DNA of 64,000 nucleotides, from NCBI RefSeq assembly GCF_000017505.1, contig NC_009675.1:1550001-1614000 (forward strand). Reading direction: 5' to 3'. How positions within the stretch are numbered: the stretch's first letter is position 1; each line of letters starts with the position of its first letter. The notes beneath the pieces were generated by a model. That model ran no database searches, was not told the origin of the DNA, and worked only from the letters and a program-made list of their open reading frames with translations. The translations under genes were made by a program, and so were the position numbers. Shown here piece after piece: positions 50,497 to 56,195 of this stretch. This DNA is from Anaeromyxobacter sp. Fw109-5 (GTDB lineage Bacteria > Myxococcota > Myxococcia > Myxococcales > Anaeromyxobacteraceae).

Positions 50497-51522
50497 ATGC
50501 CCTTCCCCCAGGACCGCCCCCGCCGCATGCGCCGCAACGAGGTGCTGCGCAGCCTCGTCCGCGAGACGATCCTCGCGCCGGACGACCTCGTCTGGCCGCT
50601 GTTCGTCCTCCCGGGCAAGCGCGTGCGCAACCCCGTCAAGTCCATGCCGGGCGTCTTCCAGCTCTCGGTGGACGAGCTCGTCGCGGAGGCGCAGGCCGGC
50701 TACGAGGCGGGCGTCCGCTCGGTGATCCTGTTCGGGATCCCGGAGCACAAGGACGAGATCGGCAGCGGCGCGTACGACGAGGACGGCATCGTCCCGCAGG
50801 CGATCCGCGCGCTGAAGGCGCAGGTCCCGGGCCTCGTCGTGATGACCGACGTGTGCATGTGCGAGTACACCGACCACGGCCACTGCGGCATCCTCAAGGC
50901 GCCGCGGGCCGGCGGTCCCGGCCAGGACCTCGGGGTCGACAACGACGCGACCCTGCCGCTGCTCGCGAAGGAGGCGGTCGCGCACGCCAAGGCCGGCGCG
51001 GACATCGTCGCCCCCTCCGACATGATGGACGGCCGGGTGGCCGCGATCCGGAAGGGGCTCGACGCCGAGGGGTACGGGGACGTGCCCGTCCTGTCGTACG
51101 CGGCGAAGTTCGCGGGCGCGTTCTACGGTCCGTTCCGCGACGCGGCCGAGAGCGCGCCGCGCGAGGGCGCCGGCATCCCGAAGGACCGCAAGGGCTACCA
51201 GATGGATCCCGGCAACTGGCGGGAGGCGCTGCGGGAGGTCGCCCTCGACGTGGCCGAGGGCGCCGACATGGTGATGGTGAAGCCCGCCGTCCCGTACCTC
51301 GACATCGTGCGGCTCGTCCGCGATCGGTTCGAGCTCCCGGTGGCCGCGTACCACGTCTCCGGTGAGTACGCGATGATCAAGGCCGCCGCGGAGCGGGGCT
51401 GGATCGACGAGGCGCGCGTCGTGCTCGAGACGCTGCTCTGCTGCCGCCGCGCGGGCGCCGACCTCGTCCTCACCTACTACGCGAAGGAGGCGGCCGGCCT
51501 CCTCACGGGGAAGCGGCGGTGA
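50497..51522 (+). CDS. hemB: Porphobilinogen synthase (delta-aminolevulinate dehydratase)
   Basis: HemB condenses two 5-aminolevulinates to porphobilinogen, the step between HemA and HemC of the other heme cluster. The 341-residue protein has the zinc-cysteine triad ([12 protein letters not shown] near residue 128), the [10 protein letters not shown] block, the Schiff-base lysine segments [17 protein letters not shown] and [11 protein letters not shown], and [10 protein letters not shown]. The cysteine triad marks a zinc-dependent form. Its stop overlaps the start of the next small gene (GTGA). Confidence 0.98.
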
Positions 51523-51731
51523 CGCCGGGGGCGCTCCGGGGCGTCGAGCCGGGCGGGACGGCCTCCTACAAGGTCGTCGAGGTCTCGCCCGTCGGCGAGG
51601 AGAGCCTGGAGGGCGCCCTGAACCGCTGGACGAAGGAGGGCTTCGCCTTCGAGTCCGTGCACTTCGTCATGCGCGAGGGCTCGCACCGGCCGGCGATGGC
51701 GTACCTGTTCTTCGTGCGGGGGAGCTCCTAG
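51519..51731 (+). CDS. Small DUF4177-like protein (70 aa)
   Basis: The 70-residue product ([34 protein letters not shown], then AYLFFVR) fits the DUF4177 beta-alpha-beta pattern of small proteins with an 'LN.w..eG' core. It starts GTG 51519 within the hemB stop and ends 3 bp before the RDD gene, so the three genes are one unit. Function unknown. Confidence 0.72.
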
Positions 51732-51734
51732 CGG

Positions 51735-52274
51735 ATGCGCGACGCGCGGCGAGAGGGCAGCCCTTACCCGAAGGCGGACCTGTCGCTCCGCGGCCTGGCG
51801 CGGCTCGCCGACTTCACGCTCGCGCTGGTGCTCGCCCAGACCTCGCCGCAGGTGGGGCCGCTCCTCGCGGCGCTCTACCTGCTCGTGGCCGACGGGCTCC
51901 TCTCCGGCCAGTCCATCGGCAAGAAGATCTTCGGCGTGCGCACCGTCGTCGTGCCGCGCCGGGCGCCGGCCGGCTACCGCGAGTCGATGCTCCGCAACGC
52001 GCCCTTCGCGCTGGTGGCGATCTTCTACGCCGTGCCGCTGCTCTGGCCGGTGCTCTTCGTGGCCGGCGTGCCGATCGTCGCCTTCGAGGCGTACATGATC
52101 TACACCGACCGCCTCGGCGTCCGGATCGGGGACATCTTCGCCGACACGCAGGTCGTGGACGGCAAGGTGCTCGCGAAGGGGGACGCGGTCGCGCCCGATC
52201 TCGCCGCCACGCCCGCGCCGCCCGGTCCGTCGGCGAGCGCGACGCGGGGCGGCGCCGCGCGCTCCGCGGCCTAG
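51735..52274 (+). CDS. RDD-family membrane protein
   Basis: The 179-residue protein has three to four membrane segments with the RDD signatures RLADFTLALVLAQ (Arg, Asp in helix 1), LLSGQSIGKKIFGVRTV and IGDIFADTQVVDG. The family is of unclear function, with some members linked to ion homeostasis. A ~35-residue Ala/Pro tail follows. It is in the hemB operon. Confidence 0.88.
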   Translation: MRDARREGSPYPKADLSLRGLARLADFTLALVLAQTSPQVGPLLAALYLLVADGLLSGQSIGKKIFGVRTVVVPRRAPAGYRESMLRNAPFALVAIFYAVPLLWPVLFVAGVPIVAFEAYMIYTDRLGVRIGDIFADTQVVDGKVLAKGDAVAPDLAATPAPPGPSASATRGGAARSAA

Positions 52275-52319: not shown

Positions 52320-54515
52320 ATGCGCATCGCGCTCACGCACAACCTCCGGCTGTCCGACTCCGAGGAGGAGGCCGAGTTCGACACCCGCGAGACGGTCGAC
52401 GCCCTGGCCGCCGCCCTCGAGCGGCTCGGCCACCGCGTGGAGCGCCTCGAGGTCTCCGGGCCCGCGTCCCGCACCGTCGCGCGCCTCGAGGCGTTCGGGC
52501 CGGACCTCATCTTCAACACCGCGGAGGGCCGCCGCGGGCGCTTCCGCGAGGCCTTCTTCCCGGCGCTGTTCGACGAGCTCGGGATGCCGTACACCGGCTC
52601 CGACGCCTACGCGCTCGCGCTCACGCTCGACAAGCAGCTCACGAAGCTCGTGCTCGCCCAGCACGGCGTCGCCACGCCCCGCTGGCAGTACGTGGAGGAG
52701 GCGCGCCAGCTCCAGCCCAACGCGCTCCGCTACCCGGTCATCGTGAAGCCGAACTTCGAGGGGAGCTCGAAGGGGATCACCCAGGACTCGGTGGTCGAGG
52801 ACTCGCTCCGCCTGCACGAGGTGGTGCGCGAGGCGCTGCGCCGTTACCCCGCCGGCCTGCTCGTGGAGGAGTTCATCGTCGGGCGCGACGTGACGGTGCC
52901 GTACCTGGAGGCGGCGGCGCCGGAGCGCCACGGCGTCCTCCAGCCGGTGGAGTACGTCATCGACGAGGCCGCCGCGGCGACCCGCCGCTACGCCATCTAC
53001 GACTACGAGCTCAAGACGAAGCTCGACCGCTACGTCTCCGTCCGGGCGCCGGCGAAGCTGAAGCGGAGCCAGGCCGAGCGCATCCAGCAGCTCTGCGAGA
53101 CGGTGTACCGCCAGCTCGGCATCCGCGACCTGGGCCGCATCGACCTGCGCCTCGGCGAGGACGGCGCCATCTACTTCCTCGAGATCAACGCGCTGCCCTC
53201 GCTCGAGCCCGGCGCCGGCATCTACGCCTCCGCGGCGCTGGAGGGGCTCCACGCCGACGCCGTGCTCGGCGCGGTGATCGAGAGCGCCACGCGCCGCTTC
53301 AACATCGCCGAGCCGCGCGGGCGGCGGGGCCGGCCGAAGCGCACCGAGCGGCTCAAGGTCGGGTTCACCTTCAACGTGAAGCGGGTCAACCCCGAGCCGA
53401 CGGGCGAGGGCGACGAGGAGGCCGAGTACGACTCGCCCAAGACGCTCCAGGCGATCCGCGAGGCCATCGCGAGCTACGGCCACGAGGTGGTGGACCTCGA
53501 GGCCACCACCGAGCTCCCCTTCGTGCTGGCCGCGACGCCGGTGGACGTCGTCTTCAACATCGCCGAGGGCTTCCGTGGCCGGAACCGCGAGTCGGCGGTG
53601 CCCGCCCTGCTCGAGCTGCTCGACATCCCGTACACCGGGTCCGATCCCGCCGCGCTCTCCGTCTCGCTCGACAAGGCGCTCGCGAAGCGAATGGTCCGGA
53701 CCCACGGCGTGCTCACGCCCGACTACGCGGTCATGCACACCGGCAAGGAGCGGCTGCCGCGGGAGCTCTCGTTCCCGCTCCTCGTGAAGCCGGTCGCCGA
53801 GGGCACCTCGAAGGGCGTCACGAAGAAGTCCATCGTCCGCGACGAGCTGGAGCTGCGAGAGGTGGCGCGCGAGCTCATCGCCAAGTACCGGCAGCCCGCG
53901 CTCGTGGAGGCCTACGTCGCCGGGCGCGAGTTCACCGTCGGGCTCCTCGGCGAGCGACGCCCTCGCGTGCTGCCGCCGATGGAGATCGTCTTCCTCGACG
54001 CGAGCGATCCCACCCCGATCTACTCGTTCGAGATGAAGCAGGACTGGAACGACAAGATCCGCTACGAGGTGCCCGCCAGGCTCTCGCCCAGGGAGCTCGA
54101 CCGCCTCGAGCGGGCCGCGCGCGAGTGCTTCACGGCGCTCGGCTGCCGCGACATCGCCCGCGTCGACTTCCGCATGGACGCCGAGGGCCGGATCTACTTC
54201 ATCGAGTGCAACCCGCTGCCGGGCCTCGCGCCGGGGTGGTCGGACCTCGTGCTCATCGCGCAGGCGGCGGGCATCGAGTACCGGGCGCTCATCGGCGAGA
54301 TCCTCGCCTTCGCGATCCGCCGGTACCAGGAGCGCGAGCGCGAGCGGGAGCGCGCGCGCCGCGCCCAGGCGGCCGCGGAGCGGGAGGCGCTGGAGCGCGC
54401 GGCGGCGGAGCGGGCCGCGCCGGCGCCGGCGCCGGCGCCCGCGGGCCCCGCGGCGGGCGCGAACGGACCGGAGAGGCCTTCCGGGACCTCCGGGGACGGC
54501 GCGCCCCCCGTATAA
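52320..54515 (+). CDS. Tandem-duplicated ATP-grasp (D-Ala-D-Ala ligase-like) protein
   Basis: The 731-residue protein is two copies of one module: about residues 1-325 and 343-690. Each copy has an N-terminal domain with an acidic EEEAEFDT/DEEAEYDS segment, the FNTAEGRRGR/FNIAEGFRGR loop, PYTGSD, LDKxLxK, the ATP-lysine VKPNFEGSSKG/VKPVAEGTSKG, and a metal site (FLEINALPSLEPG/FIECNPLPGLAPG). Both appear to keep catalytic residues. Standard Ddl is ~310 residues with one module. The C-terminus is an Arg/Glu-rich helix and an Ala/Pro tail. It likely makes an amide or peptide bond; the P1 peptidase gene 8 bp downstream suggests a joint pathway. Confidence 0.9.
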   Translation: MRIALTHNLRLSDSEEEAEFDTRETVDALAAALERLGHRVERLEVSGPASRTVARLEAFGPDLIFNTAEGRRGRFREAFFPALFDELGMPYTGSDAYALALTLDKQLTKLVLAQHGVATPRWQYVEEARQLQPNALRYPVIVKPNFEGSSKGITQDSVVEDSLRLHEVVREALRRYPAGLLVEEFIVGRDVTVPYLEAAAPERHGVLQPVEYVIDEAAAATRRYAIYDYELKTKLDRYVSVRAPAKLKRSQAERIQQLCETVYRQLGIRDLGRIDLRLGEDGAIYFLEINALPSLEPGAGIYASAALEGLHADAVLGAVIESATRRFNIAEPRGRRGRPKRTERLKVGFTFNVKRVNPEPTGEGDEEAEYDSPKTLQAIREAIASYGHEVVDLEATTELPFVLAATPVDVVFNIAEGFRGRNRESAVPALLELLDIPYTGSDPAALSVSLDKALAKRMVRTHGVLTPDYAVMHTGKERLPRELSFPLLVKPVAEGTSKGVTKKSIVRDELELREVARELIAKYRQPALVEAYVAGREFTVGLLGERRPRVLPPMEIVFLDASDPTPIYSFEMKQDWNDKIRYEVPARLSPRELDRLERAARECFTALGCRDIARVDFRMDAEGRIYFIECNPLPGLAPGWSDLVLIAQAAGIEYRALIGEILAFAIRRYQERERERERARRAQAAAEREALERAAAERAAPAPAPAPAGPAAGANGPERPSGTSGDGAPPV

Positions 54516-54516
54516 T
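54511..54516 (+). promoter_or_regulatory. Perfect TATAAT 6 nt before the P1 peptidase start
   Basis: TATAAT contains the TAA stop of the ATP-grasp gene and lies 6 nt before ATG 54523, the distance expected for a leaderless transcript. No -35 match is seen, and it could be chance. Confidence 0.4.
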
Positions 54517-54522
54517 CGGGCG

Positions 54523-55914
54523 ATGCCCGACGACCGTGCCACGAACGAGCCTCGCCGCCGCGCGCGCGAGCTGGGGATCCCGCTCGGCCGGTACAAGCCC
54601 GGCCGCTGGAACGCCATCACCGACGTGGCGGGCGTGAAGGTGGGCCACGCGACGATCATCCGCGGCGCGGCCGGTCCGCTGAAGGTGGGCAAGGGACCGG
54701 TCCGCACCGGCGTCACCGCCATCCTCCCGAACCCGGCGAACGTGTTCGAGGAGCGGGTGGTGGGGGGCGGCTTCATCCTCAACGGCGCCGGCGAGGTCTC
54801 GGGCATGACGCAGCTGCTCGAGTGGGGGCTCATCGAGACCCCGATCTTCCTCACCAACACCCTCTCGGTCGGGGCGGTCTCGGACGCGGCCGTGAAGTGG
54901 ATGGTGGACCGGTTCCCCGGGATCGGCCACGAGCACGACGTCATCATCCCGCTCGTCGGCGAGTGCGACGACTCCTGGCTGAACGACATCGCCGGGCGCC
55001 ACGTGAAGGAGGAGCACGTCTCCGAGGCGCTCCGCACCGCGAGCGACGGGCCGGTCGCGGAGGGGAGCGTCGGTGGCGGCACGGGCATGATCACCTGCGA
55101 CTTCAAGGCGGGGATCGGCACCTCGAGCCGCAAGCTCCCGGAGGCGCTCGGCGGCTACACCGTGGGCGTGCTGGTGATGTCGAACTTCGGCGTGATGCGG
55201 CAGCTCAGGGTGGGCGGGCTGCCGGTGGGCGAGGTGCTCGAGGGGCGCTACCAGTCGGTCCCGCGCCGCACCCAGAACTACGGCTCCATCATCGCGGTCA
55301 TCGCGACCGACGCGCCGCTCATCACCCACCAGCTCAACCGCATCGCGAAGCGCGCCGCGCTCGGCATCGGCCGCGTCGGCTCGACCGCGATGCACGGCTC
55401 CGGCGAGATCGTCCTCGCGTTCTCGACGGCCAACAAGGTGCCGCGCGAGACGCGCAAGATGGTCTACCGCGTGAAGATCCTGCTCGACCAGCGGCTCGAC
55501 CCCCTGTACGAGGCGGTCATCGAGGCGACGGAGGAGGCGATCCTCAACTCCCTGTGCATGGCGCGCGACCTCGAAGGCGCGAACGGGCACGTGTCCCGGG
55601 CGCTGCCGCTGAGCGACGTGAAGGAGCTCGTCGAGCACTGGCTCTCCCGCGAGGGGCGGGAGCCCGCCCCGGCGGCCCCGCGGGCCGGGGACTTCCCCGC
55701 GTCGCGCCCCAGGAGCCCTGCCGCCCCGGCTCGCCCGAGCGCGGTGCGCGGCGCCGAGGGCATGCCGCGACCGGCGCGGACCCCCGGCGCTCCCCCGGCG
55801 ACGCGCATCGATCGGAATGACGCGCGCAGCGACTCCCAGGAGGCGAAGGCGGAGGCGGCGGGAGGGGAGGGCGCCCCTCGCCCGGACGGCCGCGCGCCCG
55901 GCGACGGCGATTAG
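54523..55914 (+). CDS. P1 (DmpA-type) self-processing aminopeptidase
   Basis: The 463-residue protein is a member of peptidase family P1/S58. The N-terminus has NAITDVAGVKVGHATI and GVTAILPN; the self-cleavage Gly254-Ser255 lies in NYGSIIAVIATDAPL, where Ser255 becomes the N-terminal nucleophile of the small subunit. GTGMITCDFKAGIGTSSR is also typical. DmpA/BapA enzymes release D- or L-Ala or beta-amino acids from peptide N-termini. A ~95-residue Pro/Ala/Arg tail is not part of the fold. It follows the tandem ATP-grasp gene by 8 bp. Confidence 0.93.
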   Translation: MPDDRATNEPRRRARELGIPLGRYKPGRWNAITDVAGVKVGHATIIRGAAGPLKVGKGPVRTGVTAILPNPANVFEERVVGGGFILNGAGEVSGMTQLLEWGLIETPIFLTNTLSVGAVSDAAVKWMVDRFPGIGHEHDVIIPLVGECDDSWLNDIAGRHVKEEHVSEALRTASDGPVAEGSVGGGTGMITCDFKAGIGTSSRKLPEALGGYTVGVLVMSNFGVMRQLRVGGLPVGEVLEGRYQSVPRRTQNYGSIIAVIATDAPLITHQLNRIAKRAALGIGRVGSTAMHGSGEIVLAFSTANKVPRETRKMVYRVKILLDQRLDPLYEAVIEATEEAILNSLCMARDLEGANGHVSRALPLSDVKELVEHWLSREGREPAPAAPRAGDFPASRPRSPAAPARPSAVRGAEGMPRPARTPGAPPATRIDRNDARSDSQEAKAEAAGGEGAPRPDGRAPGDGD

Positions 55915-55997: not shown

Positions 55998-56099
55998 ATG
56001 GCCAACTCGAAGAGCAAGCACATGCGGATGAAGAGCGAGCGGCGCCAGAAGTGGAAGGCCCGCAAGAGGCGCCAGAAGGCCGCCAAGGCGAAGAAGTAG
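55998..56099 (+). CDS. 33-residue very basic protein
   Basis: ATG 55998 with ACGGAGGA 5 nt upstream opens a 33-codon frame whose product (MANSKSKHMRMKSERRQKWK at the start) has about 15 Lys/Arg residues, few acids and no Cys. The start is a little like the N-terminal helix of ribosomal protein S20 (MAN.KS...R...). It could be a ribosome- or nucleic-acid-binding peptide; I do not know the family. The strong ribosome site and clean lysine-rich codon pattern make translation likely. It stands alone, 83 bp after the P1 peptidase gene. Confidence 0.65.
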   Translation: MANSKSKHMRMKSERRQKWKARKRRQKAAKAKK

Positions 56100-56195
56100 C
56101 GCTCCACGCGCACGGCCGGAAGCTGCGCGAACGGCGGGACGGCTCGTAGCGGCCGTGCCCGCCGCTTTCGTTCGGGCCGCCCGGCGGACGCGCCC

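Follow-up and report, generated by a model that had tools for sequence, protein, structure and literature searches.

A double ATP-grasp ligase gene next to an S58 aminopeptidase gene

We analyzed a window of 64,000 nucleotides from the genome of Anaeromyxobacter sp. Fw109-5 (NC_009675.1, positions 1,550,001 to 1,614,000; the genome is a single contig of 5,277,990 bp). The analysis concerned two adjacent genes: one encodes a 731-residue protein with two ATP-grasp modules that resemble D-alanine--D-alanine ligase (Ddl), and the other encodes a peptidase of family S58 (Table 1). A first-pass annotation of the window had suggested that the two act together in synthesis and trimming of a small peptide. 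The pair is conserved well beyond this genome, the ligase does not have the substrate signature of Ddl, and the two enzymes may make and break the same small peptide in the cytosol.

Table 1. Coordinates of the ligase and peptidase genes, their parts, and the conserved neighboring genes (positions in the window).
Feature	Position	Strand	Basis
Double ATP-grasp ligase, MXAN_4097-like amidoligase, 731 aa	52320..54515	+	Pfam/NCBIfam, 77 related loci, AlphaFold2 model, locus order compared with MXAN_4097
Module 1, residues 1-331, complete Ddl-fold ATP-grasp; K105, K143, K232, D275, E288, N290	52320..53312	+	Alignment, model
Inter-module linker, residues 332-341, pLDDT < 50	53313..53342	+	AlphaFold2 model
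Module 2, residues 342-699 including C-terminal helix, complete Ddl-fold ATP-grasp; K452, K490, K573, D616, E629, N631	53343..54416	+	Alignment, model
S58 (DmpA/BapA-type, P1) aminopeptidase, 463 aa	54523..55914	+	Pfam, structure-sequence alignment
Codon of predicted N-terminal nucleophile Ser255 (autocleavage G254/S255)	55285..55287	+	Alignment
hemB (delta-aminolevulinate dehydratase), conserved neighbor, position of MXAN_4100	50497..51522	+	Pfam, locus order
Probable SglS orthologue, 70 aa, conserved upstream neighbor	51519..51731	+	NCBIfam SglS, E 6.3e-15, below cut-off
RDD-family membrane protein, conserved neighbor, position of MXAN_4098	51735..52274	+	Pfam, locus order

Both ligase modules are predicted to be complete

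Pfam detected two Dala_Dala_lig_C stretches in the 731-residue protein (E 1.4e-64), and the protein scored above the cut-off of the NCBIfam Ddl subfamily models (322.5 bits; cut-off 243). An AlphaFold2 model based on a 40-sequence alignment folded both modules confidently, with a mean predicted local distance difference test score (pLDDT) of 89.6. The best solved-structure matches of each half were Ddl enzymes: with VIA-align, the superposition on DdlB (8evz) covered residues 341-667 (Z 34.9), and that on a second Ddl (5nrh) covered residues 1-325 (Z 32.4). The large subunit of carbamoyl phosphate synthetase, which also has two ATP-grasp sites in one chain, was among the Foldseek matches to the whole model. 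However, that enzyme has other substrates and the similarity is one of remote fold only, whereas each half of the ligase is of the Ddl type.

We compared catalytic residues in an alignment that took in both modules of 30 fused proteins, approximately 40 single ligases, and Escherichia coli DdlB. Equivalents of DdlB K97, K144, E148, S151, E180, K215, R255, D257, E270 and N272 were present in both modules; the equivalent of E187 was kept in module 2 and is Asp in module 1. Nearly all of the ATP and Mg positions were invariant across 40 diverse homologues. R76/E77, R421/R423/E424, K498 and D642 are likewise invariant in the family and, going by the alignment with Ddl, may line the substrate pockets. 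The intact ATP and metal residues and the predicted folds agree with the first-pass description of two complete Ddl-like modules. A chance open reading frame (ORF) is ruled out because orthologues that are approximately 50-90% identical share the same architecture. At another locus (L098:6373-7371, + strand) there is a single Ddl-like protein in which several catalytic residues are apparently lost (D257V, E270K and N272D in DdlB numbering); it is possibly a pseudoenzyme, or the result of misalignment.

The ligase differs from Ddl at the substrate positions

H63, Y216, S281 and L282 of DdlB are among the residues that hold D-Ala. In the alignment, the position of H63 was Glu in both modules, that of Y216 was Thr in module 1 and Gln in module 2, that of S281 was Ala and Ser, respectively, and that of L282 was Gly and Asp. 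The position of E15, the residue that binds the amine of the first D-Ala, was Ala in both modules, in a region that aligned loosely and with acidic residues adjacent. There was one further good ligase match in the genome, a single-module Ddl at 4,535,104, and this protein retains His, Tyr, Ser and Leu at DdlB positions 63, 216, 281 and 282.

Phylogeny separated the modules from Ddl as well. In quick maximum-likelihood trees (short search, no bootstrap; supports from the Shimodaira-Hasegawa-like approximate likelihood-ratio test, SH-aLRT), the true Ddls formed one clade and the ligase modules were outside it. Modules 1 and 2 were each found on one side of a branch, with SH-aLRT supports of 100 and 96.

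Genetic data are available for the Myxococcus xanthus orthologue, MXAN_4097 (69% identical; locus L028). Subedi and Wall (2022, PMC9108774) describe MXAN_4097 as having two tandem Ddl domains, report that insertions in MXAN_4097 and in MXAN_4098 left social (S-) motility unaffected and caused no obvious growth or morphological defect, and name MXAN_5601 as the likely primary ddl of M. xanthus. The possibility raised with the first-pass annotation that the protein acts simply as Ddl is disfavored by the changed substrate residues, the phylogeny and this normally growing mutant, alongside the separate Ddl in the genome. Each module has the same fold as Ddl (Z up to 34.9), and the protein shares all of the ATP and Mg residues with that enzyme, but it has two modules per chain, replaced D-Ala-binding residues and a position outside the Ddl clade. 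Judged from its sequence, it is best explained as a relative of Ddl that would not function as a D-Ala-D-Ala ligase, and at the level of residues there is reason to doubt the name that databases give to this family, D-alanine--D-alanine ligase.

The first-pass annotation had also considered a peptidoglycan-precursor variant or a D-Ala peptide as the product. In such a scheme, a D-Ala-D-X ligase would make the variant precursor and the S58 enzyme would trim peptides of D-amino acids. The NCBIfam score above the Ddl cut-off fits this scheme, as does the activity of DmpA, a D-esterase/aminopeptidase of family S58. A paper on Nostoc (PMC5987646) likewise presents an extra Ddl-type ligase as thought to modify peptidoglycan peptides. 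We nevertheless consider the scheme very unlikely, given that both modules have other residues at the positions of H63, Y216 and L282, which the true Ddl of the genome retains, that the modules are outside the Ddl clade, that no murein genes recur in the neighborhood, and that the M. xanthus mutant (PMC9108774), with MXAN_5601 as the likely primary ddl, had no defect in growth or shape.

The downstream gene encodes a predicted self-processing S58 peptidase

The peptidase matched Pfam Peptidase_S58 over profile positions 1-306 of 307 (E 5.4e-117), and is encoded by the single S58 gene in the whole genome. All 86 aligned S58 sequences retained the cleavage site, G254-S255, which includes the nucleophile, as well as S293 and E147; E295 was kept in 83 and was Asp in the other three. 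In the alignment, S255, S293, E295 and E147 correspond to S250, S288, E290 and E133 of BapA. The closest solved relative by sequence was a Pyrococcus S58 homologue (2drh; 343.8 bits, compared with approximately 252 bits for BapA and DmpA). The likeness to DmpA, BapA and 2drh extends over the whole catalytic domain, and includes the nucleophile Ser, the second Ser, the Glu and the Gly-Ser of autocleavage. S58 members vary in their activity. The full-length profile match and the conserved residues support the identification, made in the first-pass annotation, of a DmpA-type, self-processing peptidase. We take the enzyme to be cytosolic because no signal sequence is evident at its N-terminus, as read from the sequence.

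The peptidase gene is directly downstream of the ligase gene, as first annotated, although the gap is 7 intergenic bases and not 8 bp. The sequence CCCGTATAATCGGGCGATG (54509-54525, + strand), which runs from the last bases of the ligase gene into the first of the peptidase gene, has a perfect -10 box six bases upstream of the S58 ATG and resembles a leaderless promoter. This TATAAT is kept in two relatives (L003 and L041) and was not present in the other four relatives compared.

The ligase and the peptidase are conserved as a pair

A scan of GTDB contigs detected 77 loci with the double ligase, some of them cut by contig ends. Most were from Myxococcota, and others were from Bdellovibrionales and from one Elusimicrobia metagenome-assembled genome (MAG). 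Among the retrieved locus records, some of which come from the same genome twice, 79 had the S58 gene downstream and in the same orientation as the ligase gene, and one (L057) had it in divergent orientation. The two genes were separated by ≤300 bp in most records. In 13 records from distant lineages, including the Elusimicrobiota MAG, the gap was -4 bp, an ATGA overlap of start and stop codons.

The two genes also occurred together at the level of genomes. Of 39 Myxococcota genomes that were drawn evenly, 10 had the fused ligase and 29 did not; S58 was found in 10 of the 10 with ligase and in 2 of the 29 without it (Fisher p 1e-7, uncorrected for kinship). We analyzed a second set of genomes, selected on their S58 state. 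All 11 of the S58-negative relatives were without the ligase, six of them in the Anaeromyxobacter genome's own family, and 11 of the 14 relatives with a strong S58 match had the full fused ligase. Ligase and S58 were jointly present or absent within one family (f1), within genus g5 of family f2 and within genus g61 of family f27. The first-pass view of ligase and peptidase as one unit is therefore upheld by pairing, co-occurrence and translational coupling, from Myxococcota to Bdellovibrionota and the Elusimicrobiota MAG. Conservation of the pair is thus strong across a large group of bacteria with predatory and social lifestyles.

Two genomes (G079 and G040) had only a stretch like module 2. 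A version of the ligase with module 2 only (380 aa; L147:7949-9091, - strand) has S58 a few genes downstream, and may reflect either the loss of module 1 or a break in the assembly. Histidine kinase genes downstream of the ligase in several MAGs (L060, L063, L070-L072) were inconsistent and were not counted as partners.

Related ligases are found next to lysine 2,3-aminomutase genes

In five other Myxococcota genomes (G002, G017, G020, G026 and G035), two separate ligases, A and B, adjoin a homologue of lysine 2,3-aminomutase (LAM), and four of the five also have a GNAT gene close by, from one family in all four. The LAM-linked A ligases were sister to module 2 (SH-aLRT 88, and 90 in a second tree). 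In contrast to the fused protein, A and B are separate genes, in the order A then B, with no adjoining S58, and module 1 does not correspond to B. We reject an origin of the double ligase as a fusion of A and B on the basis of the trees, in which module 1 groups with module 2 and A and not with B.

Other lineages of related but separate ligases adjoin LAM/KamA genes on plasmids of Bradyrhizobium, Mesorhizobium and Thioflavicoccus, and the Thioflavicoccus plasmid also has a gene for the synthesis of 2,3-diaminopropionate. For other ligase copies on rhizobial plasmids, no LAM was annotated within the stretch examined. The only fused-ligase locus with a LAM-family neighbor was L055, with a KamA-family gene divergently upstream. 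At a further locus (L093), the fused ligase is preceded by a GNAT gene of the same family as in the A/B clusters and by a third ATP-grasp gene. These associations point to beta- or diamino acids as likely substrates of the wider ligase group, and make such a substrate plausible for the 731-residue ligase itself.

A Bradyrhizobium plasmid (L168:2198-6963) has a cluster of genes for lysine 2,3-aminomutase, a gamma-glutamyltransferase, a seven-transmembrane protein and a Ddl-like ligase, another case of a ligase beside a peptidase of the N-terminal-nucleophile type. In the Anaeromyxobacter genome, two LAM-family genes are adjacent and divergent (L104:7467-10111; G000:C1 about 1,487,466-1,490,110), and relatives have a similar divergent pair. 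One of the two is just over the NCBIfam cut-off for lysine 2,3-aminomutase.

A possible cycle of peptide synthesis and hydrolysis

ATP-grasp ligases, including Ddl, activate a carboxylate as an acyl phosphate and then couple it to an amine. If the double ligase works in this way, then each module would use ATP to phosphorylate a carboxylate, an amine would attack the acyl phosphate, and the two sites could form two amide bonds and so a short non-ribosomal peptide. The S58 protein would cleave itself between G254 and S255 to become an N-terminal-nucleophile aminopeptidase, and would hydrolyze the peptide made by the ligase or a close derivative. Among unusual building blocks, the most plausible would be a beta- or diamino acid such as beta-lysine.

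We hold with moderate confidence that the pair is a cytosolic couple in which the two-site ligase builds a small peptide other than a D-Ala peptide and the S58 enzyme hydrolyzes that product or a close derivative of it. The analysis shows the predicted folds, the intact catalytic residues, the loss of the Ddl signature, and the pairing, coupling and joint absence of the genes; the common substrate, its nature as a free small peptide, its turnover in the cytosol and the identity of the amino acids are what we infer. A more specific version is tentative, and we would regard it as doubtful: a previously undescribed cytosolic cycle in Myxococcota and Bdellovibrionota, in which the ligase builds a peptide containing a beta-amino acid (for example beta-lysine), the S58 enzyme degrades it as a beta-aminopeptidase, and the peptide serves as a reserve, an osmolyte or a signal.

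There is a chemical parallel for such a couple. Carnosine (beta-Ala-His) is made in animals by an ATP-grasp ligase and is cleaved by the S58 enzymes DmpA and BapA (PMC9235088), so that a beta-aminoacyl dipeptide is made by an ATP-grasp enzyme and hydrolyzed by S58 enzymes. The enzymes of carnosine are from different organisms, whereas those of the putative couple are encoded by adjacent bacterial genes.

Several results weigh against a make-and-break couple or against its beta-amino acid version. In several Myxococcaceae the S58 gene is 2-7 kb from the ligase gene. No S58 was found in four ligase-bearing MAGs (L055, L070, L071 and L072), and one genome (G094) had the ligase plus only a weak S58 match; the pair is therefore not obligate. 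The AlphaFold2 model of the ligase had a predicted template modeling score (pTM) of 0.53, and the mutual placement of the two sites is not fixed by it. The two LAM-family genes of the Anaeromyxobacter genome are approximately 115 kb from the ligase gene, and LAM-family genes were present in 39 of 40 genomes regardless of the presence of the ligase. This distribution, together with the single case of adjacency to a fused ligase, rules out LAM as an obligate partner.

The four MAGs and the range of distances between the genes, from -4 bp to more than 7 kb, are also what would be expected if the two were neighbors without a shared substrate, with the ligase in a pathway of its own and S58 scavenging peptides or serving as a general aminopeptidase. 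S58 is indeed common in bacteria without the ligase, with 198 plasmid records and the 2 of 29 ligase-negative Myxococcota. We think this is unlikely, since it does not account for the joint presence and absence within f1, g5 of f2 and g61 of f27, or for the overlap of start and stop codons in unrelated lineages.

The ligase could instead act on something larger. RimK is an ATP-grasp enzyme that modifies protein, and with the Ddl substrate signature gone the acceptor is not constrained to be an amino acid. The ligase might add amino acids to a macromolecule (a protein, a target like EF-P, a lipid or an envelope polymer), with S58 as the eraser. In Cystobacterineae the ligase gene is in one apparent operon with sglS and the gene for an RDD membrane protein; however, outside Cystobacterineae the pair has no conserved neighbor that would be a candidate target protein. 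In addition, the modules are closest in fold to the dipeptide-forming Ddl enzymes, and the MXAN_4097 insertion mutant was normal in S-motility, growth and shape (PMC9108774). We judge this to be rather improbable.

If the preferred reading is correct, and one small peptide is both built and degraded by the pair, then a metabolite has been missed so far, and the S58 beta-aminopeptidases would gain a natural substrate that their own cell produces. Mutants of M. xanthus already exist, which makes the question of the product directly testable.

Gene neighborhood and relation to published work

The ligase family and its architecture are already known under the name MXAN_4097-like amidoligase, a term used in the Nostoc paper (PMC5987646). 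No S58 partner, substrate tests or product are described in the accessible parts of PMC9108774 or PMC5987646. Consistent with the first-pass statement that there is no characterized product, we found none in the literature covered, in which the ligase-S58 pair is also undescribed; the 2009 amidoligase survey of Iyer and colleagues, the likely origin of the family name, is outside this coverage and may list the pair. The double-Ddl architecture itself is not new (PMC9108774).

Cystobacterineae retain the gene order hemB, small gene, RDD gene, ligase and S58. In M. xanthus, MXAN_4099 is sglS and MXAN_4100 is hemB (Subedi and Wall 2022, PMC9108774), and MXAN_4097 is similar to the ligase described here in locus order (hemB-sglS-RDD gene-ligase) as well as in its two tandem Ddl-like domains. 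The M. xanthus gene in the SglS position scored 162.5 bits against the NCBIfam SglS cut-off of 170. The probable SglS of 70 aa in the window is far shorter than the 125-position SglS model. The MXAN_4097 insertion, which had no effect on S-motility (PMC9108774), speaks against a role of the ligase in S-motility by way of the sglS operon.

Beyond the S58 gene, at 56000-56101 (+ strand), there is a very basic ORF of 33 aa, MANSKSKHMRMKSERRQKWKARKRRQKAAKAKK, with no match in Pfam or NCBIfam. Most of 34 locus records have a counterpart of this ORF (MA[RN]SKSKH...WK.R...) after S58, even where S58 is kilobases from the ligase.

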